From the NCBI GenBank assembly GCA_951802425.1, contig OX637798.1, positions 1,302,001 through 1,366,000 of the forward strand: a DNA stretch of 64,000 nt, written 5' to 3'. The notes beneath the pieces are model-generated. The model made no database searches. It saw only the letters and a program-made list of their open reading frames with translations, and was not told where the DNA came from. Below, piece by piece: positions 32,441 to 61,905 of this stretch. The stretch comes from Clavaria fumosa (Eukaryota > Basidiomycota > Agaricomycetes > Agaricales > Clavariaceae). Each line of letters begins with the position of its first letter. The stretch's first letter is position 1. The position numbers and the translations under genes are program-made.

Positions 32441-33950
32441 CGATTCTTAGTAGGATAACTCATCCAAGTCAGTGCGGACTTTTCCTTGCACTCTCTGCCT
32501 TGATTCGTCCCGTTTTACAGTTGCTAGTTATCCACTGTCTCTGGTCCTCGTCTCTCAACTGTACAAATGGAGCAAATGAATACGTCTCAACATCGTTCGT
32601 GTACTGCCCCTCACCGTAGCGTGCAAGCAAAAATGTGCATGTGACGTGCCTTGCGTGAGTGAGTTGCTTTTCAATCGTGAAGAACAGGTAATTATTGGCT
32701 ACAGTGTTACTGATCCCACTTGGTCCTTGTATTGTTGAACAACTGGACAATTCCTTAAGAATCAAAGATGGATCTACGACTTCCAATTCATGGTAAATCT
32801 TGTGCCAATTCAGCATCCTCGTCTCGTGTCCCAAGATATACTCGTCAAAGGTCGTGAACTCGGTTGGTGCGCCCGGCGTGTACCGATCCGCAGTCGTCTT
32901 CTCCTTCGCCTCGCGATAGTTGAGCTCGTCCCGCTCCTCCGTCTTTCCGAGCGTCTGCTCCTCCATGATTTCCTCAATCTTGGGCCGCACGGCGAACAGC
33001 TCAATGAATGGGTCATACACCTCGAGCGACCCACTCGCGAGCGCAACGTAGAAGAAACCCTGCGGTTACATCCTTGACGCCAAACTGGTCCTTGAGCCGC
33101 TCCCCCAAACAGCCAATAGCCCCGCCGCCACAGAGGAGCAACTCCTTTTGTATCCTTGCAAACGTGTCAATCATCTCGTCCACGCGCGCCACGCCATAAT
33201 ACACCACGGGCTTCCCACCGCAGTTCCTGAGCAGGAAGTGCATTTACTGGTTGTATGCGTTGACCCACCCCAGCACCGACCTCGTCGCTGCCGGCGCAGC
33301 TCCTCGATGTGCGCAGACACCATGTCTTGATCGATCACAAAGCGCGCCTCCTTCTCCGCGTCAAACCACAGGAAGTTCCAGCAGACGTCCCCCTTGTGCA
33401 GGTTGGGCGGGTGCGCTATCCCGATGCACACCGCGCCCGTCTCCTCGTTAAACATGAGCCCGACAAGCTGCGCATAGCGATGTGGCTCGCGCCACGCCCT
33501 AGCGTACCGTTTCGGATCCTTGTCTCACATCCCCAGGTCATGTATGCGGTACAAATACAAGCAGTCCACGCGCCGGTTCACCGCCGAATTCCTGGACGTC
33601 CTCGCGCAGATCTTTAAGCACCTCGCTCGCCGCCTTGTCCAAAAACAGCTCTGACAAATATGCATTCAGCACATCAGTGTCGACATCCTTGGGCTCGAAA
33701 ACAATAGACGCAAATTCCTCCTTCTGTTCATGCATTTCCTTCCTGCCCAATCTCGATGAACTCGGCGGTTGCCGTTTTTTCCTCCCTCCTTCCCGATCCC
33801 GCAGTCTTCGCTTGAGAACCACTCATCAAGCAGCTTGCCGCACAGCTTCGTGTGCTCGAATTTTTCACGCGGCTGTGGCGGATATGGGTTTTGAGGACGG
33901 GCGCCCGGTGCTTGGGGATTTTTCAAGAGTCCTTTTTTGACTGTGAGGGA
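32440..33950 (-). pseudogene. Decayed rvt copy 1
   Basis: Alignable to the intact rvt gene from its 3' flank to about codon 115. Reading pieces include YDPFIELFAVRPKIEEIMEE, NWHKIYHELE and RKEMHEQKEEFASIVFEPKD. Codons of about 235-525 are missing, removing RT motifs A and B; the junction is at about 33587. Motif C reads HDLGM followed by a stop, one Asp short. Several frameshifts and stops are present. At the left side of the gene body about 50 codons are also lost. The 5' end is fused at about 33950 to a pan3 relic by a further deletion. Confidence 0.88.
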
Positions 33951-34530
33951 GGGACAAACGCAGAGAACGCACGATCATCGTTGAATATCCGGGTAGTAAA
34001 GGCTTCCTTGGACAGACACGATGCTGGGGTGTCGAATGGCCACCCACGTCTCGATAGCCCTAAAAGCAGCCTGGTGCATCAAGCTATAGTCTGAGGGGAA
34101 AAAAGGAATTGATCTCACACTGGAAAAAAGCCAGCACTCTAAATCCGCCTCAACATGTTCGTCCCACCGTCCGCTATGTTGACCGCGTGTAAACCGTCGA
34201 ACACCAGCTCCAGAGCTTCCGCTTCTCTCTCGTGACCCTTTCCAGAGGGACCAAAAAGTAGTATCCTCGCGGCTCCTCCGGCAACCCAGAGGGACGTCTC
34301 CGCGATTGCCGTTGGTAGCCTCCGACCGCGCGAACCTCTCTTCCTGCAGGTTGTCCACGACGAAGTGGGCGGGGACAAGCACAGAAAGCAGCTTAGCCGC
34401 GTGTAGATGGTAAGACAGTGAATGTCGCATGTACACAAAGGCTTTGTGTACATGCGAAGGGACGGGCAACGTAGTGGCTGGCTGGCTGTAAAGAGACGTG
34501 AGAAAGTAAGTGTCCTAGAGACCATGATAG
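33950..34530 (-). pseudogene. Decayed pan3 copy 1, 5' half only
   Basis: Contains PAHFVVDNLQEERF, NIADGGTNMLRRI and RLMHQAAFRAIETWVAIRHP, which match the pseudokinase N-lobe of Pan3, the subunit of the Pan2-Pan3 poly(A) nuclease. The 3' half present in copies 2 and 3 is deleted. It shares the two frameshifts of the other copies. Confidence 0.75.
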
Positions 34531-34649
34531 ACTATGCCACTTGACCTTCTGGACCTTCTTTCTCTCTCACTTTCGTTTATTCAACATTGTTTTCACATTC
34601 CCGTCTTACTTTCGTGCCATGTCTGCTTTACCAACTCGTCATCACGATG

Positions 34650-35437
34650 CTGTGATGTAGACAACCATGAGCAATTGATCTATACTTCAGAACAGATGAT
34701 GATATGCTGGTGAATGCGGTAAAGTGAACAACATGATTTTATTATCTTTCTGAAGTACGTGCAAGACCCAAAAAACCAACAACAAAGAAGCTGACAGCGA
34801 TAAATGGTCATATATGTATATTGATGTCGCAGATGTTCCGAAAGGTGCATACAGGAGATAGTAAAGCAGGCAGAAGAGTTGCAAGATAGACAGGCCCATC
34901 ATGAGCATGGCATAAGGTAACGCGCGTCAGAGTGGATGTGGATGGGCGGGCGAGATACATCACAGTGGTACAAAAGTACACAGACCAGAGATGTATACGC
35001 CTGCGGAACCCCGGACATGTGCATAGCGGGTATGGGTATGGCGGCATAATTTGGGTCGGGACTTAAGGGCAGATGGGAATAGAGTTGCGGATTGAGTGTG
35101 GCACCGAGGATGCCTACAAGGAGCCGTGCGGCCGAGGGCACAGGAGGTCTCGCCACTGGTATGTTAGGTGGTGCGTCACTAGCTGAGGCAGACAGCGGCT
35201 GGGCGGTGACACGGTGACAGCGCAGAGTGCTGAAAGGAGGAGCACGGTGAGGACGAGCATGTGCGGATTGGGCTGCATCGCAAGGCTGCGTTGTGGGCTG
35301 AGAGCATACGGTGGGTTGTCTGTGCACATTCCTGCCATGAGCGTAGCACTTCTCGAATTGGCACACAAGTCACTAAAACCGGAATTGCTGCACGTACCTA
35401 GACTCGCCAAATGACTAGCTCCCTTGTTGCTCGTGTG
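34650..35437. other. Conserved unassigned segment, unit 1
   Basis: About 790 bp between the NACHT-WD40 stop and the pan3 relic, present in all three units with few changes. Several minus-strand frames are open. One starts MQPNPHMLVLTVLLLSALCA, like a signal peptide; another begins MLMMGLSILQLFCLLYYLLY, like a membrane segment. They are in different frames and I could not join them into one convincing gene. It may simply be the 3' flank of the NACHT-WD40 gene. Confidence 0.5.
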
Positions 35438-38400
35438 TCATTGTAGTGCATGTAATGAGGGTGTGAGGTCGAGGATAATGACGCGGCCATCCTGATATCC
35501 GAAGCATACTCTGGACTGCCAGCAGGCAACGGATGTGAAATCACGGTATCGCGGAGGTATCCAACAGCTTCGTGGAACCTCGATAGTGGAGATCCATGTA
35601 CGGTCATGAGAGATGAAGCAAGGAGTGTGCTGTAGTGTCGAGCTCAGATCAGGCTGGGGGTGGACTCGGCGTGTGTTCAAAATGTGCCAAATGGGTATAT
35701 CGCCTGTCCACCCGTCAATCCCGAGTGTGTGATCAAATGCGACGCGACTCCAATCAATCGAAGAGATGGTGATAGTGTGCACCCAATCCCACCCGAACAT
35801 GACCTCTGAGTCGCTGCCCCAGATCCAGACTGTAGATGATTCAAAGCCGGTGGACGTGAGCACGATATGATGCCCGTCTTTCGAGAAGGTTGCGGAGGTC
35901 ACATCTCGCCAATATCCCTCAAGCACACTCTCCAACTCGCCAGTCACTGAGTTCCATACCCGTACTGTCGCGTTGCCATGCGTGGAAATATCGTCACCAA
36001 GATCAATGAGCTCACCACCATCACAAGACACAACACGACTTCCATCACTCGAGAAGGCCAATGACGTCACCGGACCTGAATGTCCTTTGAGCACGTGCAT
36101 CAACTTGCCAGTCACCGAGTCCCACATCTGTATTAACCCGTTGTAATAGCCAACCATGACACGGCTTCCATCATTTGTGAGGGCCACGGTATTGATGGTC
36201 ATAGGGTGTGATTCATCAACCACGAGTGTCAACTTGTGCTTCAACCCAGTCACCACATTGCGGACCCATACTATGGTGTGGCCTTCCACCCAAGACATGA
36301 CACTTCCGCCAATCAACAAGGCCACGGAGGTCACAGCTTCCGCACCTTGTCCAATGAGCGTGTCTTCCAACTCACCCGTCACTGCGTCCCAGATTCGTAC
36401 CTCCCCGTCCAATGACCCAGACACGACATGCCTTCCATCACTTGAGAAGGCCAAAGACATCACATGTGATGAATGATGTGATGAATGCCCTTGGATTAAG
36501 CTCCCTGACTTGCCTGTCACCGAGTTGGAGATCGGTATGTCAGACCTAGATATGTCAGACCTAGATATGACATGGCTTCCACTGTTCAGGGAGGCCATAG
36601 GGGTCACCCAATCTGAATGTCCCAGGGACATACCCTCCAACTCGCTAGTCACCACATTCCAGATCCGGAATGTCTTATCAATTGACCCAGATATAACATA
36701 GCTTCCATCGCTCGAAAATGCAACACAAGTCACTTCATCTAAATGCCCCTTGAGCACACCCTCTGACTGGCACGTTATGGAGTTCCAGATCCGAACTGTT
36801 GCATCGACTGACCCAGACACGACACGACTTCCACCGCTTGAAAAGGCGACACAGCTCACCCGACCTGAATGCCCCTTGAGCACACTCTTTGACTTGCCCA
36901 TCATTAAGTTCCAGATCAGGACTGTCCCATCTTCCAACCCAGACATGACATGACTTCCATCGCTTGAGAAAGCCACGGGGGTGAACCCTTGCTCACCAGT
37001 CTGGAGCACATACTCCAGCACACCAGTTACGGCATTCGAGGTCCGAACCGTTCCATCATATGAACGAGAAATGACATGACTTCCATCGCTTGAGAATGCC
37101 ACAGAGGTCACATCCTGTCCACTGAGAACGCATTCCAACTCGCCAGTTACCGCATTCCAGATCCGGACTGTTTTGTCATTTGACCCAGACACGACACGAC
37201 TTCCATCGCTTGAGAACGCCACACAGGTCACATGCACCATGAGCATGCACTCCAACTTGCCAGACATCACATTCCAGATCTGGATTGTCGCATTGTCAGA
37301 GCCACTCAGGATGCGACTCCCATCGCTCGAAAGGGCTATGGGGGTCACTGGGTTGAAATGTCCCTCGAGCTTGCCGTCTAGTTCGCCTGTCACCACATTC
37401 CAGATCCAGATTACATCAAAGTCAGTCGTCACAATGCGGCGGCCATCCTTCGATAATGCCATGCGGTATATGAAATGGCCGCAATGGATGACCTTCTCGC
37501 ATTTGTCCCGGAAGGTGTTTCGCAGCCCTAGGACAATGTTGGGTAGGCAAGACCTCCGAGGAGCATAGTGACCACAAAACACTGATTGCATCGGTATCCA
37601 TACTAATGCTGAATGATATGTTTCAAGACAATAGTGTTTGATGACATCGAAGTTATCAAGGACAAATCGGCGGGCATCCGAAATCATGATCACCATACTG
37701 GGGTAAAGATCCTGAGGCCAATGGATCAATATTAATCATTCAAAGATTGGAAATCACAAACCAGTTGATGTTCCTCCATCATTTTTAATGACCCAATTGC
37801 AATATCCAATTTACACAGAAGACTAAGACATTCAAGCCAATGCAACAGATGGCTATTCAGAAAGCCATCCAATAGAGAGCGAATGTCTTCTATATCAATA
37901 TCCTTAGTTTGAATATGTGAAACCCAATGTTGGCAGGCATAAGCCAGACCATTTGAGATGTGCCGAGTGATTGTGTCCGACATCAGTGTCTTGTTTGCAG
38001 GTCGACCATCCAGGCGACAGATATTCTCTCGAAGAGAAGAGTTCATGAGTCGGAGACATTGGATTGTGAGGGTCTGATGCGACATCGAGTGATCAAGGTA
38101 CAGATCAGGACGACAACGTTTAGGATCTGTGAGAAAATCGGGGAAAGATGCATGGAATACAGACACGGTGTCATCGGATGTCGGCGGTACGGAGATTACA
38201 GAGTGCAACGAAATTAGGGCTGTCTTGACACTCTCAATGTCCAATTCCAGCAGAGTTGCAAGGCCACAGACAGTCAATGGATTTCTGACATTGATGATTG
38301 TCCCGAGGACACAGCGAACATTGCACCTCTCAGAGGGCTCCAAGTCGTCATATGCACGATCCAGTATCGTCGTGTACAAGTCGTCAAGATTCCTTGTCCT

Positions 38401-40319
38401 TGCAGTGGATTCTGGTGTGGGGAGCGAACTGATAATACGACTGAGCCGCATCCGGGGACTGGCATTACGCTGCCCAATATACCGAATACTAGTTGCAGCA
38501 TAGATGAATAATCCACTCGCTCGCTCTACAAGTATCTTGACCTCATGGTCCGGGGGCCAACCTTGCTTGTATTTGAAAATTCCTGCAATACGAGACAGCT
38601 TGTCATCTATGTATAGTCGGATATCAGCTTGCACAATATCCATGTTGATATTATGAAGGTGTAAGGCAGAGCGCAAATCGGGAGGCCAAGACATGATAGT
38701 CTCGAAGATCAATGGCTCCGGTCGGCTGGTGATGAAGATTTTGAGAGGGAGATGGCGTGCATGATCGAAGAGAATCCCGAGGACATTTTCAATAGCATCG
38801 TCGTCCCTGCATTCATCCAAGGCATCAATGACAATAACAAGTGTTTTGTCAATCCTTTCCATCGCCATTCGAACGGGCTCCAGTATGAGTTCTGTGAACT
38901 GCCGAGTAAGAGAGACTGATGGATCTCTCTTCAAAACCTCCAAGAGCGCGACAGCAACAGCTTCGCGAGATCGAGCAAGCTCATAAGCAATGGTTGGGAA
39001 AATGCATCCGACATCGTTGCAATCAGATCGTGAACGAGAGCAGAAGAAACTGGCTCCGAGGATACCATCATCGTGTAGCTGCTCGCAGAAGCTATAAGCG
39101 ATAGTCGTTTTTCCGGTTCCAGCCATGCCATTCATCCAGTAGATGTTCGGGCTTGTGGTATCATGGGCCCATGTCCTGAGACCCTCCAGGACATCTTTAC
39201 GAGTTCCTGCCGTGCACGCGCCGCGTTGAAGAAATTCAGGTGTTCCAGAGAATACTGTATCCGAGTCGTATTTGGCGGCTTCAGCTCGTCGTAATTTTTG
39301 AAATAGAACACTCTGTATATCACACTTTAGAGACAAATACATCCTTTGAGAAGAACGTAAGACGTACCGAGAGTATGTCTTCGGTATTACGTTCTGTGCT
39401 TAAGCCCACATCGGTCTAGAGCTAATTTCAGTCTGTGCATTTGGTCTTCACTTAGTTTTCTCACCTGGAAACTATCAAAGAGGTTGGCAATCGTACGAAA
39501 CGAGGCTTCAATATACCCAGCATCCCTCGATCCCTCAGCAAGGCGTCTTATAAGTCCATGGCCTGCTCTACTCTGAATATCCTTCGTTTGCTGATTGATC
39601 GCTCTGCACGACCCAGAATCAATAAAGCATGTACAAGAACCCAATCGCCTCTACGCACCTCACGAAATTGTCAAGGCGGCGACGAAATCGAGATGAGTTT
39701 GATTCACTGCTATGCTGCTCGATCATGATGATGAAAGCCTGAAGCTTGCGATCCATTTCGGCGAATTCTTCCTTGTTTTGAATCGCTTGCTGTGTAATTA
39801 ACAATGTCAGAGAACACTGTTTCGATCAGAAGTTGGGGGCTTGCGTACGTCCACGACCTCCATACAAGCGAGCAATCCGCCAACAGCTACTCTCAAGGGA
39901 GGAAACGCACCCGCGCATTCCTTGAGAGTTTTCAGAGCAGTCTTGAACCCTTCAAATGCCATCGTACTCGCCTCCTTGACCGTTTGGAGGCTCTTCGGGG
40001 CTGCGGGTGACTTAGTCGAGCCAACTATTGTCGCATAGTAATTTGAACCAGTCGACTCAGAAGTTAGGTTGACGTCCGACGTGAGCACAGGGAGGGCGTT
40101 TGCTGGGGTGTCAGCAGCGACAGATGGGTGTCGAGTTGTGGGCGCTGCAGGAGATGTGACGATTGCATCGATGGAGTGTGGGCCAGGCGGAATAGCAGGG
40201 AATGTCTGCGTAGACTCAGACGGCAGAGAACGTTCCTGCGATGAATTTGCGATTCCCCTGGCCCGTTTAAAAACCGTGTTGAAGTTGAAACGTTTAAATA
40301 TCTCTGGTCGCTTCGACAT
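35438..40319 (-). CDS. NACHT-WD40 STAND protein (fungal NLR-like), copy 1
   Basis: A signal-transducing NTPase of the kind linked to fungal non-self recognition. Five exons are inferred: 40319-39849, 39789-39659, 39603-39391, 39343-37762 and 37711-35438, giving 1556 residues with no stop. Order: N-terminal helical region (about 1-270), NACHT with P-loop NGMAGTGKTT (about 343-352) and Walker B LVIVIDALDEC (about 440-450), then about a dozen WD40 repeats (about 850-1450; typical unit VAFSSDGSRVVSGS...VRIWN). What looks like a frameshift before the NACHT exon is removed by a 47-nt intron (39344-39390). Its neighbours on both sides are pseudogenes, yet this frame is intact. Ligand and partners are unknown. 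Confidence 0.92.
36537..36566 (-). repeat. 15-bp tandem duplication in the WD40 region of copy 1
   Basis: TCAGACCTAGATATG occurs twice in a row in copy 1 and once in copy 2 (about 49648). It adds five residues (ISRSD) between blades and keeps the frame. Confidence 0.85.
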
Positions 40320-43210: not shown

Positions 43211-45100
43211 TCAGCGGGTGTTGGCCAGCTCCCCAAATGCCGCCTCTACACAGTTCTTGACTTCCTTGTAGCTCACGACTAGACAGCTCTGCTCGTCCCG
43301 CGGGACGAGCATAATCCGTTCGTCCGTGCCCGCATCGAGCTACACTCATCGCGGGATTTTAAAAAAACAACGTCAGCACTGATGACCGGCCAAGTTTTTG
43401 CGTTATTACCTTGATGAGGCACGTGAGAACGTGCGACAAGTTGACGACCGGCTTCCCGCTCTCGCCATTCTGGTGGAATACGTAGTCGCGGAACAGTTTG
43501 AGGATGTATCGGTCCCCCGTCTCGGACCAGCGCGGGTCACGAGCGAACCTGGGGATACAGGTAAGTACAAGCGTCAAGTAGGGACGACGGTGGAAACGTT
43601 GGCAAGAGAACTCACTCCGGCCGTTCGTTGATGAAGCCGAATTTGCACAGCAGCCGGACAAGACGCGCGTTTTCTAGTTCGCTCATGAGTTCTCCTTCCA
43701 ATCGGTCCACCGCTCTACAATCACCCAACAACACACATCAACCTCAGAAGAAGAGACGCAAGAGTCAGGTAACTCACAACTGAGCCTCATCCAACTCAGT
43801 CAGCAATCGGCTGCCTATCATGTCCAGAAGTTGGGCAATCGTCTACCGTCCCGGCGCGATCAGCGACTGAAGCTCAAGAAAAGGGAAGGGGGAAAGAAGG
43901 AAGGAACCTTATGTGGGCCTGGCTTCGTGATCAACCACATCGCAACGTTCTTTAAATCTTGCGAATACAGCCTCCCAATGGTCTCCAGGGACTTGGGCAG
44001 GTTGCCCACGGCACCGACGTTATTGCAGCACAGAGCGAACAGTAGACGGCCAAACATCGTGAGGTCTTCCTGCTGTAGGAAAAGTACGACCTGTCGCGTG
44101 TCGTGCATGAGCACGTCCAGCACGCCGCAGGACGATATGCGGAGCCTGTGTGACACAGTGGGAGGAGGGGCCAGGGCAAGTATTGTGTTGAACCGCGCCA
44201 AATAAAAAAGCGAATGAGATCAGCAAATGGAGGTCAGAGAGCCGGGGTTTCCTCCCGTACCGATTCTTCCCTGTGACGAGCACCTTGGTGACGTCGATCA
44301 TCCTGACTGCTAGTCCAGCGTCGTGCACCCTCTCTACGGCGCTGGCAATCTACACGATGTGCGGCCAGAGGGTCCGTTCCGGGATCGCCATTGGGTTCCC
44401 TTGTAGTCGGCCTTTGTGAAGGGTTCGCATCTTGGATGACAGGTGTACGCCATCACCGGAGCTGTACGGCGAAGGAAGTTCAGCTGGTGCACGAAGAGGG
44501 GAGGGACAAACGCAGAAAACGCACGATCATCGCCGAATATCCGGGTGGTAAAGGCTTCCTTGGACAGACACGATGCTGGGGTGTCGAATGGCCACCCACG
44601 TCTCGATAGCCCTAAAAGCAGCCTGGTGCATCAACCTATAGTCTGAGGGAAAAAAAAGAATTGATAGCCGATCTCACACTGGAAAACAAAAACGCACTCT
44701 CGATCCGCCTCAACATGTTCGTCCCGCCGTCCGCTATGTTGACCGCGTGTAAACCGTCGAATACCAGCTCCAGAGCTTCCGCTTCTCTCCCATGACCCTT
44801 TCCAGAGGGACCAAAAAGTAGTATCCCCGCGGCTCCTCCGGCAACCCAGAGGGACGTCTCCGCGAATGCCAAGAGGTAGCCTCCGACCGCGCGAACATCT
44901 CTTCCTGCAGGTTGTCCACGACGAAGTGGGCGGGGACAAACACAGAAGGCAGCTTAGCCGCGTGTAGATGGTAAGACAGTGAATGTCACATGTACACAAA
45001 GGCTTTGTGTACATGCCAAGGGAGGGGCAACGTAGTGGCTGGCTGGGCGAAGCAAAGGAAGACTGTAAAGAGGCGTGAGAAAGCAAGTGCCCTAGAGACC
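43211..45100 (-). pseudogene. Decayed pan3 copy 2
   Basis: Covers the Pan3 pseudokinase and C-terminal domain: [102 protein letters not shown] and the end EVKNCVEAAFGELANTR. Introns still look normal. The N-terminal zinc finger and PABP-binding part are absent. A one-base loss after STVY and a one-base gain at VSVQ break the frame, and both occur in all copies. The end lacks 18 nt that copy 3 has. Confidence 0.8.
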
Positions 45101-45544
45101 ATGATCGTGTTTGCACCTATGCCACTTGACCTTCTGGACTCTCTTTCTCTCTCATTTTCGTTTATTCAACATTGTTTTCACATTCCCGTCTTACTTTCGT
45201 GCCATGTCTGCTTTACCAACTCGTCATCACGATGCTGCATCAGGAAAAGGGGAAATCTCTGAATCTGTCTTATTATTACTTAAACTGTCTTAAAATGGTG
45301 AATAAGACACATTCAGACACAAGAGATTAAGACACACTTGACTTAGATTAAGACTATCCAATTTATGGATTAGCCTTAGGCTTGTCTTAGGCATGTACTC
45401 AAGACAAACCAAGTCACATCAAGTCACTAAGCAGACCATGTAGTTTCAGCAAACCTCAGGTCAGATGGACCCATCATCTTGCATAGACACAGGTTTAATA
45501 CTACAGCAGGCTGGCAGTGCTATGTAGATCTACACTCATAGAAC

Positions 45545-46890
45545 CTGCCACCGCCGCTGCCATCCGCCGCCGCCGCCACTGCCACCGCCATCGTCGTCCG
45601 CCGCTGTTGCTGCCGCTGCCGTCGTCGTCGTTGTCCACCACTGTTGCTGCCGCCGCTGCCGCCGCTGCCGTTGTCGTCATCGTCTGCCGCCGTTGCTGCC
45701 GCCGCCGCCGTCGTCGTCATCCACTGCTGTTGCTGCCGCCGCCGCCGTCGTCGTCATCCACTGCTGTTGCTGCCGCCGCCGCCGTCGTCGTCATCCACTG
45801 CTGTTGCTGCCGCCGCCGCCATCGTCGTCATCCACTGCTGTTGCTGCCGCTGCTGCCATCGTCGTCCGCCGCTGTTGCTGCCGCTGCCGCCGTTGTCGTC
45901 CGCCGCTGTTGCTGCTGCCGTCGTCGTCATCTGCCACTGTTGCTGCTGCCGTCGTCGTCGTCCACTGCTGTTGCTGCTGCCGTCGTCGTCGTCCGCCGCT
46001 GTTGCTGCCGCCACCATCTTTGTCGTCGGCCGCTGCGTCGTGCTGTTGCTGCTGCTGCCGCCGCCGCCGCCGCCGTCTGCTGCTGTTGCTGCCGCCGCCG
46101 CCGCCGCCGCCGTCTGCTGCTGTTGCTGCCGCCGCCGCCGCCGTCTGCTGCTGTTGCTGCCGCCACCGTCTGCTGCTGTTGCTGCCGCCGCCGTCTGCTG
46201 CTGTTGCTGCCGCCGCCGCCGCCGTCTGCTGCTGTTGCTGCCGCCGCCGCCGCCATCTGCTGCTGTTGCTGCCGCCGCCGCCGCCATCTGCTGCTGTTGC
46301 CGCCGCTGCCGCCGCCGTTGCTGCCGCCGCCGCCGTCGTCCGTCGTCGTCCGCCGCCGTTGCTGCCGCCATCGTCGTCGTCCGCCTCCATTGCTGCCGCC
46401 GCCATCGTCGTCGTCCGCCTCCATTGCTGCCGCCGCCGCCGTCGTCATCCGCCGCTGTTGCTGCCGCCGCCACCGTCGTCATCGTCATCCACCGCTGTTG
46501 CTGCTGCCGCTGCCGCCGTCATCGTCGTCCACCGCTGTTGCTGCCGCCGTCGTCGTCCACCGCTGTTGCTGCCGCCGCCGCCGTCATCCGCCGCTGTTGC
46601 TGCCGCCGTCATCGTCGTCTGCCGCCGCTGTCGTCATCCGCCACTGTTGCTGCTGCCGCCGCCGTCGTCGTCATCGTCCGCTGCGTCGTGCTGTTGCTGC
46701 TGCGGCTGTCGTCGTGCTATTGCTGCTGCTGCCGCCGCCGCCGCCGTCGTCGTGCTGTTGCTGCCGCCGCCGCCGCAGCCTTCGTCGTGCTGTTGCTGCT
46801 GCCGCTGCCGCCGTCGTCATGCTGTTGCTACTGCTGCCGCCACCACCGTCACATCTGTTGTCGCCGTCGCAGCTGTCACTGTCGCAGTCA
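45545..46890 (+). repeat. GYY-type triplet array (GCC/GCT/GTT/GTC)
   Basis: About 1.35 kb of imperfect triplets, nearly without A on the + strand. Higher-order units of 34 nt (ATCCACTGCTGTTGCTGCCG...) repeat several times at about 45717-45850. Because 34 is not a multiple of three, all three + frames stay open over hundreds of codons. I do not treat these frames as genes. Confidence 0.9.
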
Positions 46891-46975
46891 CCGTCGCAGC
46901 TCAATGGCGATAGAGAGGGACTTACGGTTCGATGGGGTGGAAGGGTGAAGGTGAAGGTGCGAGAAGAACAGGCAG

Positions 46976-47045
46976 CGGACTTAGAAAAACTTCAACATCA
47001 GATCAGATCATGTGATCTGATGTTGATGTTTTTCTTCCAAGTCCG
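46976..47045. other. Long hairpin between the two triplet arrays
   Basis: AACATCAGATCA (46994-47005) pairs perfectly with TGATCTGATGTT (47013-47024) around a 7-nt loop. Pairing continues outward through CTT/GAT, AAAAAC/GTTTTT and CGGACTT/AAGTCCG with one mismatch and a 3-nt bulge, giving over 30 pairs. Confidence 0.85.
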
Positions 47046-47112
47046 TGTCAAGTCATGTGTCATGTCCGTGCCACGCATCCCCACTGGCACTCAGCCAACA
47101 ACTTGCAGCAGG

Positions 47113-47570
47113 AGCGATGACCATGACGGACCATGACAGCAACAACCACAACCACGACCGCGACGACCACGACCACGACCGTGACGACCACGACCAGAGT
47201 CACCAGACCACGACCATGGCCACAACCATGACCACGACGGTGACGACGATGGTGATGACCACGACCACGATGGCAATGGCGATGACCACGACCATGACAG
47301 CGACGATGATGGCGACGATGATGGCGATGACCACGACCACGACGGCAACGACAATGGTGATGACCACGACGGCGACGGTGATGACCACGGTGACAGCGAC
47401 GGCAACGACCACGACAGCGATGACAGCGACGACCGCGATGACAGTGATGACAGCGACGGCGACGACAGCAATGGTGACAACTGTGACAGCGACAACTGCG
47501 ACAGCGACAACAGCAACGGCGAAAACAGCAACAGCGACGACAGCGACGGCAACAACAGCAACGATGATGA
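47113..47570 (+). repeat. RRY-type triplet array (GAC/GGC/AGC/GAT)
   Basis: About 450 bp of imperfect triplets dominated by GAC, CAC, GAT, GGC and AGC. The complement of RRY is RYY, so this array is roughly complementary in pattern to the one on the left of the hairpin. Confidence 0.85.
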
Positions 47571-47786
47571 AGGTATGTCTTTGTCTCCTTTGGGTGAACT
47601 TAGAATTACTTTATGTACTTTGTGTTGGACTTGGACTTACGACCCTTATTCAGTACTTTACAAAATGTTTACTAAGACGTAGTAAGGACAACCGGAGTGT
47701 CTTAGATGACTTAATTGCCTTAGACTCAATTCTAAGTCTACTAAGTCACCCTCAGTAACCCTCAGAGATTTCCCCTTTTCCTGATG

Positions 47787-48575
47787 TGTGATGTAGACAA
47801 CCACGAGCAATTAATCTATACTTCAGAACAGATGATGATATGCTGGTGAATGCAAGTGATACAACATGATATTATTATCTTTCTGATATACGTGTAAGAC
47901 CCAAAAAACCAACAACAAAGAAGCTGACAGCGATAAACGGTCATATATGTATATTGATGTCGCAGATGTTCCGAAAGGTGCATACAGGAGATAGTAAAGC
48001 AGGCAGAAGAGTTGCAAGATAGACAGGCCCATCATGAGCATGACATAAGGTAACGCGCGTCAGAGTGGATGTGGATGGGCGGGCGAGATACATCACATTG
48101 GTACAAAAGCACACAGACCAGAGATGTATACGCCTGCGGAACCCCGGACATGTGAATAGTGGGTATGGGTATGGCGGCATAATTTGGGTCGGGACTTGAG
48201 GGCAGATGGGAATAGAGTTGCGGATTGAGCGTGGCACCGAGGATGCCTACAAGGAGCCGTGCGGGCGAGGGCACAGGAGGTCTCGCCACTGGTATGTTAG
48301 GTGGTGTGTCACTAGCTGAGGCAGACAGCGGCTGGGCGGTGACACGGTGACGGCGCAGAGTGCTGAAAGGAGGAGCATGGTGAGGAGCACGAGCATATGC
48401 GGATTGGGTTGCATCGCAAGCCTGCTTTGTGGACTGAGAGCATATGGTGGGTTGTCTGTGCACATTCCTGCCATGAGCGTAGCACAGTTCTCAAATTGGC
48501 ACACAGGTCACTAAAATCGGAATTGCTGCACGTACCTAGACTCGCCAAATGACTAGCTCCCTTGTTGCTCGTGTG
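47787..48575. other. Conserved unassigned segment, unit 2
   Basis: Same segment as 34650-35437, with small indels. The frame starting MQPNPHMLVL in unit 1 is shifted here, which argues against that frame being a conserved protein. The frame with PPNIPVARPPVPS is kept in all three units. Confidence 0.5.
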
Positions 48576-51500
48576 TCATTGTAGTGCATGTAATGAGGGT
48601 GTGAGGTCGAGGATAATGACATGGCCATCTATATATCCGAAGCATACTCTGGACTGCCAGAAGGCAACGGATGTGCAATCACGGTATCGCGGAGGTATCC
48701 AACAGCATCGTGGAACCTCGATAGTGGAGATCCATGTACGGTCACGAGAGATGAAGCAAGGCATGTGCTGTAGTATCGAGCTCAAATCAGGATGGGGGTG
48801 GACTCGGCGTGTGTTCAAAATCCTCAAAATGGGTATATCGCCTGTCCACCTGTCAATCTTGAGTGTGTGGTCGAATGCGACGCGACTCCAATCCTTTAAA
48901 GAGATGGTGATAGAGTGCACCCAATCCTCCTTGAACATGACCTCTGAGTCGCTGCCCCAGATCCAGACTGTAGATGATTCAAGGCTGTTGGTGGACGTGA
49001 GCACGACATGATGCCCGTCTTTCGAGAAGGTCGCAGAGGTCACATCTCGCCAATCTCCCTCGAGCACACTCTCCAACTTGCCAGTCACTGAGTTCCATAC
49101 CCGTACTGTCGTGTTGTCATACCTGAAAAAGCCTCCACCATCACAAGACACGACACGACTTCCATCACTCGAGAAGGCAAATGACGTCACCCTCTTTGAA
49201 TGTCCTTTGAGCATGTGCATCAACTCGCCAGTCACTGAGTCCCACATCTGTATTGACCCGTTGGTAAAGCCAGCCATGACGCAGCTTCCATCATTTGAGA
49301 GGGCCGCGGTAGAGATGTAGATATGGTATGATTCATCAACCCCAAGTGTCAACTTGTGCTCCAACCCAGTCACCACATTGCGGACCCATACTGTGCTTGA
49401 AGATTCCACCCAAGACACGACAGTTCCGCCAATAGACAAGGCCACAGAGCTCATGGGCTCCACGCATCGTCCCATGAACGTGTCTTCCAACTTGCCTGTC
49501 AATGCATCCCAGATTCGTACCTCCCCGTCCAATGACACAGATGCAACATGCCTTCCATCACTCGAGAAGGCCAAACAGAACACACATGATGAATGCCCTT
49601 GGATTAAGCTCCCTGACTTGCCTGTCACCGAGTTGGAGATCGGTATGTCAGACCTAGATATGACACGGCTTCCACTGCTCAAGGAGGCCATAGGGGTCAC
49701 CCAATCTGAATGTCCCAGGGACATACCCTCCAACTCGCTAGACACCACATTCCAGATCCGAACAGTCCTATCAATTGACCCAGATATAACATAGCTTCCA
49801 TCGCTCGAAAAGGCGACACAAGTCACTTTATCTGAATGCCCCTTGAGCACACCCTCTGACTGGCACGTTATGGAGTTCCAGATCCGAACTGTTGCATCGA
49901 CTGACCCGGACACGACACGACTTCCATCGCTCGAAAAGGCGACGCAGGTCACAAAACTTGAATGCCCCTTGAGCACACCAGTTGACTTGCCCGTCATTGA
50001 GTTCCGGATCAGGACTGTCCCGTCTTCCAAGCCAGACATGACATGACTTCCATCACTTGAGAAAGCCACGGGGCTGAACTCTCGCTCACCAGTCTGGAGC
50101 ACATACTCCAGCACACCAGTTACGGCATTCGAGGTCCGAACCGTTCCATCATATGAACGAGACATGACACGACTTCCATCGCTTGAGAATGCCACAGAGG
50201 TAATATGACCCCATCCCCTGAGTATGCACCCCAACTCGCCAGTTGCCGCATCCCAGATCCGGACTGTTTCGTCATCCGACGCAGACACGACACGACTTCC
50301 ATCGCTTGAGAACGCCACACAGGTCACACGCTTTTCATGTCCCTTGAGCACGCGCTCCAACTCGCCAGTCATCACATTCCAGATCCCGATCGTCGCATTG
50401 TCGAAGCCACTCAGGATGCGACTTCCATCACTCGACAGGGCAATGGAGGTCACCTTGTTTAAATGTCCCTTGAGCATGCCCTCTAGTTCGCCTGTCACCG
50501 CATTCCAGATCCGAATTACATCGTAGTCACTTGTCACAATGCAGCGGCCATCCTTTGATAATGCCATGCAGCTTACGAAATAGCCACAATGTATGACTTT
50601 CTCGCATTTGTCCCGGAAGGTATTTCGCAGCCCTAGGACAATGTTGGGTAGGCAAGACCTCCGAGGAGCGTAGTGACCATGAAATACTAATTGCGTCGGT
50701 ATCCATACTAATGCTGAATGATATGTTTCAAGACAATAGTCTTTGATGACATCAAAGTTATCAAGGACAAATCGGCGGGCATCCGAAATCATGATCACCA
50801 TACTGGGGTAAAGATCCTGAGGCCAATTGATCAATATTGATCATTCAAAGATTGGAAATCACAAACCAGTTGATGATCCTCCATCATTTTTAATGACCCA
50901 ATTGCTATATCCAATTTACACAGAAGACTAAGACATTCAAGCCAATGCAACAAATGGCTATTCAGAAAGCCATCCAATAGAGAGCGAATGTCTTCTATAT
51001 CAACATCCTTAGTTTGGATATGCGAGGCCCAGTATTGGCAGGCATAAGCCAGACCATTTGAGATGCGCCGAGTGATTGTGTCTGACTTCAGTGTCTTGTT
51101 TGCAGGTCGACCATCCAGGTGACAAATATTCTCTCGGAGAGAAGAGTTCATGAGTCGGAGACATTGGATTGTGAGGGTCTGATGCGACGTCGAGCGATCA
51201 AGGTACAGATCAGGACAACAACGTCTAGGATCTGTGAGAAAGTCGGGGAAAGATGCATGGAATACAGACACAATGCCATCGGATGTTGGCGGTACGGAGA
51301 TTATGGAGTGCAACGAAATTAGGGCTGTCTTGACACTCTCTATGTCTAATTCCAGCAGAGTTGCAAGGCCACAGACAGTCAACGGATTTTTGACATTGAT
51401 GATTGTCTCGAGGACACAGCGAACATTGCACCCCTCAGAGGGCTCCAAATTGTCATATGCACGGTCCAGTATTGTCGTGTACAAGTCGTCAAGATTCTTG

Positions 51501-53436
51501 GTCCTTGCAGTAGATTCTGGTGCAGGGTGCGAATTGATAATACGAGTGAGCCGTGTCCGGGGACTAGCATTAAGCTGTCCAATGTAACGAACACTTGTTG
51601 CAGCAAAGATGAACAGTCCATCCGCTAGCTGTACAAGCTTGCTGACCTCATCCTCTGGCGGCCAACCTTGCTCATAATCGAAATTCCTAGCAATACAAGA
51701 TAGACTATCTTCCATGTACAATCGAATGTCGGTTTGTACGAGATCCTTGTTGATGTCATGGAGGTATAAGGTAGAGCGTAATTCGGGAGCCCAAGACATG
51801 ATAGTCTTGAGAATTAGTGGCTCTGGTCGGCTAGTAATGAAGATTTTGAGAGGGAGATGGCGTGCGTGATCGAAGAGAATCCCGAGGACACTTCGAATAG
51901 CGCCGTCATCCTTGCATTCATCTAGAGCATCAATGATAACAACAAGCACTTTGTCAATCCTTTCCATCGCCATTCGAACGGGGCCTAGGATGAGCTCCAT
52001 GAACTGCCGAGCAAGAGATGCTGACGGATCTCTCTTCAATACCTCCAAGAGCGCAACAGCGATGGCGTCGTGGGATCGAGCAAGCTCATAAGCAATGGTT
52101 GGGAAAATGCGTCCGACATCATTGCAATCAGATCGTGAACGAGAGCAGAAGAAACTGGCTCCGAGGATACCATCATCGTGTAGCTGTTCGCAGAAGCTAT
52201 AGGCGATAGTCGTTTTTCCGGTTCCAGCCATGCCATTCATCCAGTAGATTTTTGGACCTGTAGTATTATGGGCCCATGACCTGAGACCCTCCAGGACAGC
52301 TATACGAGTCCCTGCCGTGCACGCGCCGCGTTGAAGAAATTCAGATGTTCCAGAGAATACTGTATCTGAGTCGTATTTGGCGGCATCAGCTCGTCGTAAT
52401 TTTTGAAATAGAACACTCTGTATATCACGCTTTAGAGACAAATACACCCTTTGAGAGGAACGTAAGACGTACCGAGAGTATGTCTTCGGTATTACGTTCT
52501 GTGCTTAAGCCCACATCGGTCTAGAGCTAATTTCAGTCTGTGCATTTGGTCTCCGCTCAGTTTTCTTACCTGGAAACTATCAAAAAGGTTGGTAATCGTA
52601 CGAAACGAGGCTTCAATGTACCCAGCATCCCTCGATCCCTCAGCAAGACGTCTTATAAGTCCATGGCCTGCTCTACTCTGAATAGCCTTCGTTTGCTGAT
52701 TGATCGCTCTGCACGACCCAGAATCAATAAAGCATGTACAAGAACCTGATCGCCTCTACATACCTCACGAAATTGTCAAGGCGATGACGAAATCGAGATG
52801 AGTTTGATTCGCTGCTATGCTGCTCGATCATGATGACGAAAGCCTGAAGCTTGCGATCCATTTCGGCGAATTCTTCCTTGTTTTGAATCGCTTGCTGTAT
52901 AATTAACAATGTCAGAGAACACTGTTTCAATCAGAGATTGGGGGCTTGCGTACGTCCACGACCTCCATACAAGCGAGCAATCCGCCAACAGCTGCTCTCA
53001 AGGGAGGAAACGCACCCGCGCATTCCTTGAGAGTTTTCAAAGCAGTCTTGAACCCTTCAAACGCCACCGCACTCGCCTCCTTGGCTGTTTGGAGGCTCTT
53101 CGGGGCTGCGGGTGACTTAGTCGAGCCAACGATTGTCGCATAGTAATTCGAGGCTGCAACTGAATCAGTCGACTCAGAAGTTAGGTTGACGTCCGACGTG
53201 AGCGAAGAGAAGGCGTTTACTGGGGTGTCAGCAGCGACAGATGGGTGTCGAGTTGTGGGCGCTGCAGGAGATGTGACGATTGCATTGATAGAGTGTGGGC
53301 CAGGCGGAATAGCAGGGAATGTCTGCGTAGACTCGGACGGCAGAGAACGTTCCTGCGATGAATTTGCGTTTCCCCTGGACCGTTTAAAAATGGTGTTGAA
53401 GTTGAAACGTTTAGGTATCTCTGGTCGCTTCGACAT
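48576..53436 (-). CDS. NACHT-WD40 STAND protein (fungal NLR-like), copy 2
   Basis: Same exon plan as copy 1: 53436-52954, 52894-52764, 52708-52496, 52448-50867 and 50816-48576, giving 1549 residues without a stop. P-loop NGMAGTGKTT and Walker B LVVIIDALDEC are intact. The residue after the fourth splice is Val (GTG) where copy 1 has Met, so the ATG there in copy 1 is not a start. The WD40 part differs from copy 1 mostly at scattered residues and in a few blades. The N-terminus has four extra residues near the DSVAAS stretch. Confidence 0.92.
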
Positions 53437-56244: not shown

Positions 56245-58160
56245 TCAGCGGGTGTTGGCTGCAGACCCTGGGCCCTTAGCCAGCTCCCCAAATGCCGCCT
56301 CTACACAGTTCTTGACTTCCTTGTAGCTCACGACTAGACAGCTCTGCTCGTCCCGCGAGACGAGCATAATCCGTTCGTCCGTGCCCGCATCGAGCTGCAC
56401 TCATCGCGGGATCAAAAGGAACAATGTCAGGACTGACGACCGGCCAAGTTTTTACGTTATTACCTTGTTGAGGCACGCGAGAACGTGCGACAGGTTGACG
56501 ACCGGCTTCCCGTTCTCGCCAACCTGGTGGAATACGTAGTCGCGGAACAGTTTGAGGATGTATCGGTCCCCCGTCTCGGACCAGCGCGGGTCACGAGCGA
56601 ACCTGGGGATACAGGTAAGCACAAGCGTTAAGTAAGGATGAGGGTGAAAACGTTGGCAAGAGGACTCACTCCGGTCGTTCGTTGATGAAGCCGAATTTGC
56701 ACGGCAGCCGGACAAGACGCGCGTTTTCTAGTTCGCTCATGAGTTCTCCTTCCAATCAGTCCACCGCTCTACAATCACCCAACCACACACATCAACCTCA
56801 GAAGAAGTGATGCAAGAGTCAGGTAACTCACATCTGGGCCTCGTCCAACTCAGTCAGCAATCGGCTGCCCATCATGTCCAGGAGTTGGGCAATCGTCTAC
56901 CGTCCCGGTGCGATCAGCAACTGAAGCTCAAGAAAAGGGAAAGGGGAAAGAAAGAAAGAACCTTATGAGGGCCTGGCTTCGTGATCAACCACATCGCAAC
57001 GTTATTTAAATCTTGCATATACAACCTCCCAATGGTCTCCAGGGACTTGGGCAGATTGCCCACAGTAGCGACGTTATTGCAGCACAGAGCGAACAGTAGA
57101 CGGCCAAATATCGTGAGGTTTTCCTGCTGCAGGAAAAGCACGTCTTGTCGCGTGTCGTGCATGAGCACGTCCAGCACGCCGCAAGACGATATGCGGAGCC
57201 TGTGTGACGCGGTGGGAAGAGGGGCAGGCCAGGACAAGTATTGTGTTGAACCGCGCCAAATAAAAAAGCGAATGAGATCAGCAAACGGAGGTCAGAGAGC
57301 CAGGGTTCCCTCCCGTACCGATTCTTACCTGTGACGAGCACCTTGGTGACGTCGATCATCCTGACTGCTAGTCCAGCATCGTGCACCCTCTTTACGGCGC
57401 TGGCAATCTGCACGATGTGCGGCCAGAGGGTCCGTTCCGGGATCGCCATTGGGTTCCCTTGTAGTCGGCCTTTGTGAAGGGTTCGCATCTTGGATGACAG
57501 GTGTACGCCATCACCGGAGCTGTACGGCGAAGGAAGTTCAGCTAGTGCACGAAGAGGGGAGGGACAAACGCAGAGAACGCACGATCATCGTTGAATATCC
57601 GGGTAGTAAAGGCTTCCTTGGACAGACACGATGCTGGGGTGTCGAATGGCCACCCACGTCTCGATAGCCCTAAAAGCAGCCTGGTGCATCAACCTATAGT
57701 CTGAGGGAAAAAAAGGAATTGATAGCCGATCTCACACTGGAAAAAAGCCCGCACTCCAAATCCGCCTCAACATGTTCGTCCCGCCGTCCGCTATGTTGAC
57801 CGCGTGTAAACCGTCGAATACCAGCTCCAGAGCTTCCGCTTCTCTCCCGTGTCCCTTTCCAGAGGGACCAAAAAGTAGCATCCTCGCAACTCCTCCGGCA
57901 ATCCAGAGTGACGTCTCCGCGATTGCCAAGAGGTAGCCTCCGACCGCGCGAACCTCTCTTCCTGCAGGTTGTCCACGACGAAGTGGGCGGGGACAAACAC
58001 AGAAGGCAGCTTAGCCGCGTGTAGATGGTAAGACAGTGGATGCCGCATGTACACAAAGCCTTTGTGTACATGCGAAGGGAGGGGCAACGTAGTGGCTAGC
58101 TGGGCGAAGCAAAGGAAGACTGTAAAGAGACGTGAGAAAGTAAGTGCCCCGAGACCATGA
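56245..58160 (-). pseudogene. Decayed pan3 copy 3
   Basis: As copy 2, including both shared frameshifts. It ends GELAKGPGSAANTR with 18 more nt than copy 2. C-terminal pieces [20 protein letters not shown] and the [14 protein letters not shown] stretch are well kept. No intact pan3 gene lies in this window. Confidence 0.8.
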
Positions 58161-58173
58161 TTGTGTTTGCGCC

Positions 58174-58622
58174 TAAGATAGGCCGCATCCACTCACCGCT
58201 ACATCACGTGATCTAAATGAGAAAGCGTGACATTTGGACCGAAAACCTATCTCCTCTACTAAAAAGAACTTATTGATGAAAGTAAGACCTAGGATCATTG
58301 CAAAAATCAATTCCCCTGAGATCCTAGGTTCAATTTTGGGCAAAAAAGGGCAAATGCCTGACAAGATACATTTTTTGTCCGAGTGCCAATATACAGTACC
58401 CCTAAGCAGACTAGGTCCAATTAGATTATTATTTTTCTCTCTCCGCACCATGCCAAAGCAAGCTGCATGGGCAGCTAAGAAATTTTGAGGCCATTGCATA
58501 CTTCCCGAGTGCATAATGCAAGACCTTGACAAAGCTCAAATTGCGTAGCATACAGTAAATTTACTTGTCACAATGTGTCACACTGCACGTGATGTAGCGG
58601 CGAATGGATGCGGCCTATCTTA
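58174..58622. mobile_element. MITE with about 37-bp terminal inverted repeats
   Basis: 449 bp. Ends TAAGATAGGCCGCATCCA... and a near-perfect complement (two mismatches seen), finishing CACGTG. Units 1 and 2 lack it. An inner inverted repeat (GACCTAGGATC / GATCCTAGGTT) lies at 58286-58330. No coding capacity. The target duplication is short or absent. Confidence 0.78.
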
Positions 58623-58639
58623 CTAGTGGTAGACTATGC

Positions 58640-59283
58640 CACTCGACCTTCTGGACCCTCTTTCTCTTTCATTTTCGTTTATTCAACGTTGTTTTCACAT
58701 TCCCGTCTTACTTTCGTGCCATGTCTGCTTTACCAACTCGTCATCACGATGCTGTGATGTAGACATGAACAATTGATCTATACTTCAGAGCAGATGATGA
58801 TATGCTGGTGAATGCGGTGAAGTGAACAACATGATTTTATTATTTTCCTGAAGTACGTGCAAAAAACCAACAACAAAGAAGCTGACAGCGATAAACCGTC
58901 ATATACGTATATTGATGTCGCAGATATTCCGAAAGGTGCATACAAGAGATACAAGATAGACAGGCCCATCATGAGCATGGCATAAGGTAACGCGCGTCAG
59001 AGTGGATGTGGATGGGCGGGCGAGATACATCACATTGGTGCAAAAGCACACAGACCAGAGATGTATACGCCTGCGGAACCCCGGACATGTGAATAGTGGG
59101 TATGGGTATGGCGGCATAATTTGGGTCGGGACTTGAGGGCAGATGGGAATAGAGTTGCGGATTGAGCGTGGCACCGAGGATGCCTACAAGGAGCCGTGCG
59201 GGCGAGGGCACAGGAGGTCTCGCCACTGGTATGTTAGGTGGTGTGTCACTAGCTGAGGCAGACAGCGGCTGGGCGGTGACACG
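58640..59283. other. Conserved unassigned segment, unit 3, truncated
   Basis: Follows units 1 and 2 until GGCGGTGACACGGTGAC, then stops abruptly at the satellite-related DNA. About 120 bp of the segment and the whole NACHT-WD40 gene are missing. Confidence 0.7.
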
Positions 59284-59429
59284 GTGACGCACATAGTTCA
59301 GTCGGATATTCCAGTATACAACGGGATACCGGACACTGCAAATCCCCTGTATATAACGGGGTACCGGATTCCGCCGGAGATATCTGATTTTCTAGTAATA
59401 TATGTGGCCGGCGGAGGATATCCTTGCCA

Positions 59430-61800
59430 GGATAACCATGGGTTCAGCGAATTAAATAGGATATTCTTGACCAGATAACCTCAGGTCCAGCAAAATTGGA
59501 TAGGGTATCCGTGACTGGATTGAATCCAGGCCACCAAATTAAATAGGATATCCTTAACTGGATTGAATCCAAGCAACCATAATAAATAGGATATCCATGA
59601 CTGAAGAAAATCCAGGCCACCAAGTTAAATGGGATATCCTTGACTAGTTTGAATCCAGTACCAAAGTAAATAGGATATCCTTGACTAGTTCCAATCTAGG
59701 CTACCAAAGGAAATAGGATATCCTTGACTAGTTTGGATCCAGGCTACCAAAATAAATGGGATATTCTTGACTAGTTCCAATCTAGGCTACCAAAGTAAAT
59801 AGGATATCCTTGCCTAGTTTGAATCGAGGCTACCAAAATAAATGGGATATCCTTGACTAGTTTGAATCCAGGCTACCAAAATAAATAGGATATCCTTGAC
59901 TAGTTCCAATCCAGGCTACCAAAAAAAATAGGATATCCTTGCCTAGTTTGAATCAAGGTACCAAAATAAATAGGATATCCTTGACTAGTAAATAGGATAT
60001 CCTTGCCTAGTTTGAATCAAGGCTACCAAAATAAATAGGATATCCTTGACTAGTTCCAATCTAGGCTACCAAAATAAATAGGATATCCTTGACTAGTTTG
60101 AATCAAGGCTACCATAATAAATAGGATATCCTTGCCTAGTTTGAATCAAGGCTACCAAAATAAATAGGATATCCTTGACTAGTTTGAATCCAGGCTACCA
60201 AAATAAATGGGATATCCTTGACTAGTTTGAATCCAGGCTACCAAAGTAAATAGGATATCCTTGCCTAGTTTGAATCAAGGTACCAAAATAAATGGGATAT
60301 CCTTGACTAGTTCCAATCCAGGCTACCAAAGTAAATAGGATATCCTTGATTAGTTTGAATCCAGGTTACCAAAGTAAATAGGATATCCTTACCTAGTTTG
60401 AATCAAGGCTACCAAAATAAATGGGATATCCTTGACTAGTTTGAATCCAGGCTACCAAAATAAATAGGATATCCTTGACTAGTTCCAATCTAGGCTACCA
60501 AAATAAATAGGATATCCTTGCCTAGTTTGAATCAAGGTACCAAAATAAATAAGATATCCTTGCCTAGTTTGAATCAAGGCTACCATAATAAATAGGATAT
60601 CCTTGCCTAGTTTGAATCAAGGCTACCATAATAAATAGGATATCCTTGCCTAGTTTGAATCAAGGCTACCAAAATAGATAGGATATCCTTGCCTAGTTTG
60701 AATCAAGGTACCAAAATAAATGGGATATCCTTGACTAGTTTGAATCAAGGCTACCAAAATAAATAGGATATCCTTGACTAGTTCCAATCTAGGCTACCAA
60801 AGTAAATAGGATATCCTTGATTAGTTTGAATCCAGGCTACCAAAGTAAATAGGATATCCTTACCTAGTTTGAATCAAGGCTACCAAAATAAATGGGATAT
60901 CCTTGATTAGTTTGAATCCAGGCTACCAAAATAAATAGGATATCCTTGACTAGTTCCAATCTAGGCTACCAAAGTAAATAGGATATCCTTGACTGGTTGT
61001 AATCCAAGCCGCCAAAGTCAATAGGATATCCGTGACTGGTTTGAATCAAGGCTACCAAAATAAATAGGATATCCTTGCCTAGTTTGAATCAAGGTACCAA
61101 AATAAATGGGATATCCTTGACTAGTTTGAATCAAGGCTACCAAAATAAATAGGATATCCTTGACTAGTTCCAATCCAGGCTACCAAAGTAAATAGGATAT
61201 CCTTGCCTAGTTTGAATCAAGGCTACCAAAATAAATGGGATATCCTTGATTAGTTTGAATCCAGGCTACCAAAATAAATAGGATATCCTTGACTAGTTCC
61301 AATCTAGGCTACCAAAGTAAATAGGATATCCTTGACTGGTTGTAATCCAAGCCGCCAAAGTCAATAGGATATCCGTGACTGGTTTGAATCGAGGCTACCA
61401 AAGTAAATAGGATATCCTTGACTAGTTTGAATCAAGGCTACCAAAGTAAATAGGATATCCTTGACTAGTTTCAATCCAGGCTACCAGATTAAATAGGATA
61501 TCCTTGACTAGTTTCAATCCAGACCACCAAATTAAATAGGATATCCTTGACTGGTTTGAATCCAAGCCGCCACAGTAAATAGGATATCCTTGACTTGTGC
61601 GAATCAAGGCTACCAAAATTCATAGGATATCCTTGACCTGTGTCAATCCAGACCACCAAATTAAATATGATATCCTTGACTAGTTTCAATCCAGACCACC
61701 AAAATAAATAGGATATCCTTGAACGGTTGTAATCCAAGCTGCCAAAGTCAATAGGATATCCGTGACTGGTTTGAATCCAAGCCACTACATTAAATAGGAT
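59430..61800 (+). repeat. 43-bp satellite with GGATATCC in nearly every unit
   Basis: About 55 head-to-tail units. A consensus reads GGATATCCTTGACTAGTTTG, then AATCCAGGCTACCAAAATAA, then ATA. Sub-types differ at GACTAG/GCCTAG, TTTGAA/TTCCAA and CCAGG/CAAGG and appear in recurring order, suggesting higher-order repeats of several units. The first 150 bp (59290-59430) are more diverged. The palindromic GGATATCC core is almost invariant. Confidence 0.92.
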
Positions 61801-61905
61801 ATCATTAGAGATATTGGGATATCCATGTCCTGTATGACACCAGTCCAGCAGAGATATTCCTGCACTTCACAGTAGACCTATCAACTGCTCTATGAAGAAG
61901 GCTCA

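Follow-up and report, generated by a model that had tools for sequence, protein, structure and literature searches.

Inverted triplet arrays in a probable non-autonomous PlavakaB-type foldback transposon of the basidiomycete Clavaria fumosa

Introduction

What kind of element carries two long triplet arrays, one inverted relative to the other, between perfect terminal repeats, and what are such arrays to the element that bears them? The question is raised by a locus in the window analysed here, a stretch of 64,000 nucleotides from contig OX637798.1 of Clavaria fumosa, in which an earlier note, made from the letters alone, had recognized a foldback-like transposable element built from two complementary triplet arrays. 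The sequence supports that description. The Mutator superfamily has received most foldback elements, although some, among them Galileo of the P superfamily, belong elsewhere (PMC4079207, PMC3573991). PlavakaB is a fungal lineage of the CMCT/CACTA clade in Agaricomycotina, grouped with CACTA/EnSpm, Mirage, Chapaev and Transib, and is defined by CATCA..TGATG termini together with a target-site duplication (TSD) of 2 or 3 bp (PMC12730594).

Results

Anatomy of the element

The layout of the element is given in Table 1. The inverted repeat at both ends, CATCAGGAAAAGGGGAAATCTCTGA (CATCAGG..CCTGATG), is perfect over 25 bp as first claimed, and the TAAGAC/GTCTTA motifs described as sub-terminal are indeed confined to the terminal parts of the element, where eight occur (45267-45384, 47673 and 47699) and the rate in the remainder of the window would predict about 0.25 per 540 bp. 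The hairpin between the arrays was also located. The right array, noted as 0.45 kb of RRY, has such runs over 64% of its length, against 0.4% after shuffling, and 285 of their 297 bases fall in one phase. The left array, noted as 1.35 kb of GYY, is likewise present, with GYY runs of at least four triplets over 70% of its 1.35 kb (0.3% after shuffling), but it is not one unbroken triplet run. Because the GYY runs use the three phases equally (309, 309 and 324 bases), the left array is a minisatellite of triplet-built units, which tandem-repeat analysis puts at about 25-50 bp. A periodicity test in a single phase overlooked most of this array and only phase-tolerant methods, lag-3 autocorrelation and phase-free runs, detected it, so that one long triplet run would be the wrong description.

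Table 1. Coordinates of the element, its parts and the corresponding empty sites in the window
Feature	Position	Strand	Remarks
Whole element, probably a non-autonomous PlavakaB-type foldback transposon	45238..47786	+	2549 bp; ends, TSD, 17 genomic copies including itself, two empty sites
Target-site duplication TG, left copy	45236..45237	.	Same TG at 47787-47788; single TG in empty sites
Left terminal inverted repeat, 25 bp	45238..45262	+	25/25 identical to reverse complement of right end
Left subterminal region	45263..45546	+	TAAGAC at 45303, 45328, 45349; GTCTTA at 45267, 45287, 45384
Left triplet array, purine-poor, GYY on + strand, three phases mixed	45547..46887	+	Limits approximate
Central hairpin	46983..47035	+	Core GATCATGTGATC at 47006-47017, common to family 2
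Right triplet array, purine-rich, RRY on + strand	47110..47569	+	Inverted relative to left array; limits approximate
Right subterminal region	47570..47761	+	TAAGAC at 47673; GTCTTA at 47699
Right terminal inverted repeat, 25 bp	47762..47786	-	End comparison
Target-site duplication TG, right copy	47787..47788	.	Matches left TG; empty sites
Empty target site, paralogous unit 1, single TG	34651..34652	.	Joined-flank alignment
Empty target site, paralogous unit 3, single TG	58753..58754	.	Joined-flank alignment

Empty sites and genomic copies

The window holds three paralogous units (33947-39342, 43238-52447 and 56293-59289), and the flanks of the element were joined and stripped of one TG for comparison with its sister units. 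The joined sequence aligns in a single piece to unit 1 (34178-35155, 93.4%), and its alignment to unit 3 (58634-59225, 91.0%) also spans the junction. Both empty sites read GATGCTGTGATG, the occupied site GATGCTG-element-TGTGATG. Presence in one unit only, with an exactly known empty site, was thus correctly recognized within the window, the site being intact in both sister units; genome-wide, by contrast, the element is multicopy. A search for its 25-bp end, which might have returned no other copy, gave 39 ends without mismatch in the 48.8-Mb genome (pattern with two ambiguous positions; reversed-pattern control, 0). Thirty-four of these pair to form 17 complete elements, the window copy included, on 11 contigs, and the other five count as apparently single ends.

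All 17 complete copies have CATCA..TGATG termini and all except L019 are flanked by a 2-bp TSD, that is, 16 matching dinucleotides where shuffling the pairing of these flanks 10,000 times gave a mean of 2.9 and a maximum of 9; none has a 3-bp TSD. The first 163 bp of the window element have 18 matches in the family, its own among them; identity is 98-100% in 17 of these and 85% in the remaining one, L022. Its right end (47560-47786) has matches at 24 genomic places, again counting itself. Window 45238-47786 is a discrete mobile element.

Two of the three paralogous units contain genes that by eye resemble the NACHT/WD40 type, and the units provide natural empty sites. The third unit alone bears a further insertion (58176-58633), to which two more places in the genome are related; its ends, inverted over about 35 bp (AGATAGGCCGCATCC..), are not of Plavaka type. 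Elsewhere in the window, a 43-bp tandem array of about 54 copies occupies 59500-61803 within an A+T-rich stretch.

Family assignment and transposase

Termini in all 17 copies, and the TSD in 16, agree with the definition of PlavakaB; the CAT..ATG ends do not agree with strict CACTA/EnSpm (5'-CAC..GTG-3', 3-bp TSD). The profile of the Plavaka transposase (PF18759) has 41 matching stretches in the genome, several per gene copy, of which 39 are above the cut-off and the best reaches E 1.5e-125; there was none in 14 control genomes, a weak control in that those named are prokaryotes. All 41 fall outside the 17 complete copies, for which reason the element is filed solely as a non-autonomous PlavakaB derivative, and no transposase-coding copy with its exact terminal inverted repeat (TIR) was found among them. 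With 8961 bp on C1 and 11127 bp on C11, two long copies were considered as autonomous and rejected, as they are enlarged by what by eye look like nested Copia- and Gypsy-like retroelement frames. In L049 and L050, 5.4-kb elements whose ends are nearly identical, the frames again look Copia-like by eye, and neither has a Plavaka match.

The search for autonomous relatives that the earlier note had proposed succeeded in part. A Plavaka transposase stretch at C3:2492134-2493138, with one in-frame stop when read without an intron model, lies in a repeat with the terminus CATCAGGAAAA, which has only its first 11 bp in common with the TIR of the window element. The boundary of homology of this repeat falls exactly at L066:2114, reading CATCAGGAAAACTG, and is common to the C8 and C5 matches; a triplet array lies inside, at about L066:3489-3810. 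Collinear matches on C8 lead us to infer a single repeat holding both this end and the transposase; known by its left end (C3:2488747), it is a candidate relative and not a proven partner of the window element.

A captured host-gene fragment

Five of the 17 copies, and these alone, contain a fragment of a host gene in the manner of Pack-type elements (L016-L019 and the long C11 copy, where the fragment lies at C11:1194031-1194273). In L017, the copy tested, the captured stretch is open and matches cytochrome b5 (PF00173, E 3.4e-19); it covers query residues 1-142 there, while the other four copies have the portion beyond cytochrome b5, residues 62-142. The likely source is C10:555210-555635, 95% identical and about 1.3 kb downstream of molybdopterin-domain matches on the same strand (C10:553264-553901). 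From this order of domains, we take the source gene to be probably the host nitrate reductase. The fragment was not found in the window copy.

Other end types with the same design

Besides that of the window element (family 1), four further end types, families 2-5, carry triplet arrays. The family-2 end, CATCAGCAAAACGTC, occurs 26 times at up to three mismatches, and triplet arrays were present at five of the six loci read; at the sixth, L036, there was none within the 2 kb examined. The sole family-2 element with both ends, L037, has no 2-bp TSD. An apparent empty site for a family-2 insertion beside the Plavaka repeat on C8 was rejected, since the left junction fits but 250 bases at the right junction (L078) are not visibly homologous to the expected flank. 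Eight extra loci were chosen for having the strongest array matches beyond those two families. In seven of them a CATCAG start adjoins a purine-poor array, and their ends are of three types, which make up families 3, 4 and 5; L075 has no CATCAG end. In family 4, all three elements with both ends visible (L071, L072, L076) are flanked by a 2-bp duplication.

The order of the arrays, purine-poor first and purine-rich last, is the same in 25 of 27 stretches across the five end types. This order is independent of the strand read; eight of the stretches are incomplete, among them both exceptions (L035 and L068), and the long C1 and C11 copies were left out of the count. Near-palindromic elements of about 630 bp (among L051-L059), with related ends and the TIR CATCAGGAAAAGGGGAAATTACTGA, have inconsistent flanking duplications (2 bp, 3 bp or none) and were rejected as array carriers, there being no triplet arrays in L051, L052, L054 or the full-length relatives of L052 among L053-L059.

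In families 3-5 (L068, L071, L072, L074, L076, L077), triplet or GA-rich arrays are separated by stretches that by eye look like introns, of the form GTGCGY...ACAG or its complement. On contig C7, four ends CATGAGGAAGAGGGGAAATTACTGA stand 15-21 kb apart (1573950, 1589267, 1604480 and 1625143), a spacing that suggests a tandem duplication bearing a related element.

Folding and the central hairpin

That the whole element can fold back on itself was borne out by its folding energy as RNA: the predicted structure reached -998.5 kcal/mol, with 365 of 852 pairs linking left and right arrays, against -849.2 kcal/mol and 38 such pairs when the left array was flipped. Three dinucleotide shuffles gave -916.3, -941.2 and -928.4 kcal/mol, and the other two copies folded, L010 and L015, behaved similarly to the window element. 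Its long inverted arms, tandemly repeated inside and predicted in silico to pair with each other, are those of a foldback element.

The core of the central hairpin, GATCATGTGATC, has 132 matches in the genome against two for the reversed control. Among the matches listed, on contigs C1-C9, it was found in nine of ten family-1 copies, where the genome average would give 0.083 matches in all ten, and for 18 of 21 family-2 ends it lay no more than 7 kb further inward. The hairpin stems read CAG/CTG in family 1 (L011, L014) and GGG/CCC in family 2 (L033, L037), so that pairing is retained. On the simplest reading of these sequences, the two families would descend from a common ancestor that already had both arms and centre.

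Variation in array length

Three copies with practically the same ends differ in the left array, which measures 1405 bp in the window copy, 1430 bp in L009 and 1060 bp in L010 (limits approximate, from the assembly); their first 163 bp are identical and their last 227 bp practically so. Eight copies have perfect 25-bp TIRs, and among them the left array spans 415-1430 bp. Gap lengths, compared in eight pairs, are multiples of three in some cases and not in others.

Discussion

Since its ends and TSD fit PlavakaB and transposases were found only elsewhere in the genome, the window element is in our view very probably a non-autonomous cut-and-paste transposon of PlavakaB type, related to CACTA/EnSpm, with a foldback architecture in which the arrays are inherited arms prone to slippage. 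Acting in trans from another locus, a Plavaka transposase would bind the TIR and the subterminal motifs, the TAAGAC-type motifs serving as putative binding sites; it would then excise the element and reinsert it, duplicating 2 bp of the target. In the arrays we see, most probably, the inherited arms of an ancestral foldback. Such arms may expand and shrink by slippage, during replication or when the excision gap is repaired, and outpace mutation of the ends; we propose slippage from the differences in length seen in the assembly.

It could instead be that the arrays are functional and kept for that reason. The hairpin of a transcript, as double-stranded RNA, might set off RNA silencing or help to escape it; alternatively, transposition might require the arrays and the central hairpin, as spacing or for protein binding. 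The opposite polarity of the outer arrays throughout nearly all stretches and all five end types would be expected from such a role, as would the strong pairing of one array with the other, which flipping removes and which recurs in all three copies folded, and the central core retained in two end types with paired differences in the stem; in addition, the arm repeats of Galileo reportedly bear secondary transposase-binding sites (PMC3573991). We nevertheless regard a functional role as rather unlikely: common descent alone could explain both polarity and core, the left array varies more than threefold in length among copies with perfect TIRs, the subterminal motifs already resemble binding sites, and the palindromic family has related ends and no triplet arrays (L051, L052, L054 and the full-length relatives of L052). 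The more specific proposal that a whole group of fungal PlavakaB elements makes use of inverted triplet arms, resized at each transposition and held in polarity because their transcripts or single strands form long hairpins of use to element or host, strikes us as distinctly doubtful; were it true, these elements would be a natural system for studying triplet-repeat instability coupled to transposition.

A different origin would make the arrays exonic, parts of a gene that was captured or is transposon-borne and encodes a low-complexity protein. The near-single phase of the RRY runs, whose translation is rich in D, S, N, G and H, is in keeping with this, as are the intron-like GTATGT..CAG that by eye follows the right array, the intron-like spacers seen by eye beside arrays in other families, and the captured nitrate-reductase piece in five copies. 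A coding role is nonetheless unlikely, because the left array uses all three phases and the frame from the start MTMTDHD to the end of the right array is open, by eye, in only one of the eight perfect-TIR copies (L013); two translations from the window had no Pfam match, and we hold the exon reading to be quite improbable. An assembly artefact or plain satellite DNA, as might be suspected of low-complexity tandem arrays, which assemble poorly, is scarcely credible given exact ends at 17 places, TSDs at 16 of them, two empty sites for the window copy and arrays that differ among the copies compared. Placing the element with classical Foldback, with Galileo or with Mutator would account for tandem repeats in long inverted arms like those of Tetris and Galileo, yet it too is exceedingly improbable, as the ends agree with PlavakaB and the duplication is of 2 bp, compared with 8-10 bp in Tetris and 7-bp bounding sequences in Galileo (PMC4079207, PMC3573991).

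For a non-autonomous PlavakaB-type element with inherited arms, this genome offers a direct route to asking whether arrays resize during transposition, because it combines near-identical ends and differing arrays with known empty sites for the window copy. It also lets one ask whether such long inverted repeats feed fungal small-RNA silencing.

Foldback elements with tandem-repeat arms are already known from the published accounts of Tetris and Galileo. Tetris of Drosophila virilis is likewise a non-autonomous foldback element with both arms tandem-repeated and with variable repeat number and middle domain, but its units are of about 220 bp, its TSD is 8-10 bp, its suggested superfamily is Mutator and its host an insect (PMC4079207). 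Galileo, of the P superfamily in Drosophila, resembles the window element in its long, internally repetitive arms with repeat numbers that are unequal between arms, the longest arms being found in non-autonomous copies; it differs in its units of about 210 bp, its 7-bp bounding sequences and the existence of copies that bear a transposase (PMC3573991). Plant Pack-TYPE and Pack-CACTA elements are comparable as non-autonomous TIR elements with a host-gene fragment, here seen in five of 17 copies, whereas the present elements are fungal, have PlavakaB ends and hold the fragment between triplet arrays (PMC8903248).

With PlavakaB itself the likeness lies in the CATCA..TGATG termini, the 2-bp TSD and a host genome rich in Plavaka transposase matches; the window element differs in having no transposase and an interior of inverted triplet arrays around a central hairpin (PMC12730594). 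The sections available of that account do not mention tandem or triplet arrays in PlavakaB, and we found Plavaka elements nowhere described as carrying triplet or microsatellite arrays in the open-licence literature (including PMC12730594, PMC9674265 and PMC7473861, as far as their accessible parts extend), which is weak evidence of absence. The author of the earlier note had not seen triplet expansions of this scale described in a transposable element, and G+C-rich triplet arms were not found in the open-licence literature searched, with the same weakness as evidence. What appears new is a foldback architecture with triplet arms in PlavakaB-type elements, in several families of one genome, and beside the arms of Tetris and Galileo its presence in the PlavakaB lineage would constitute an independent origin.
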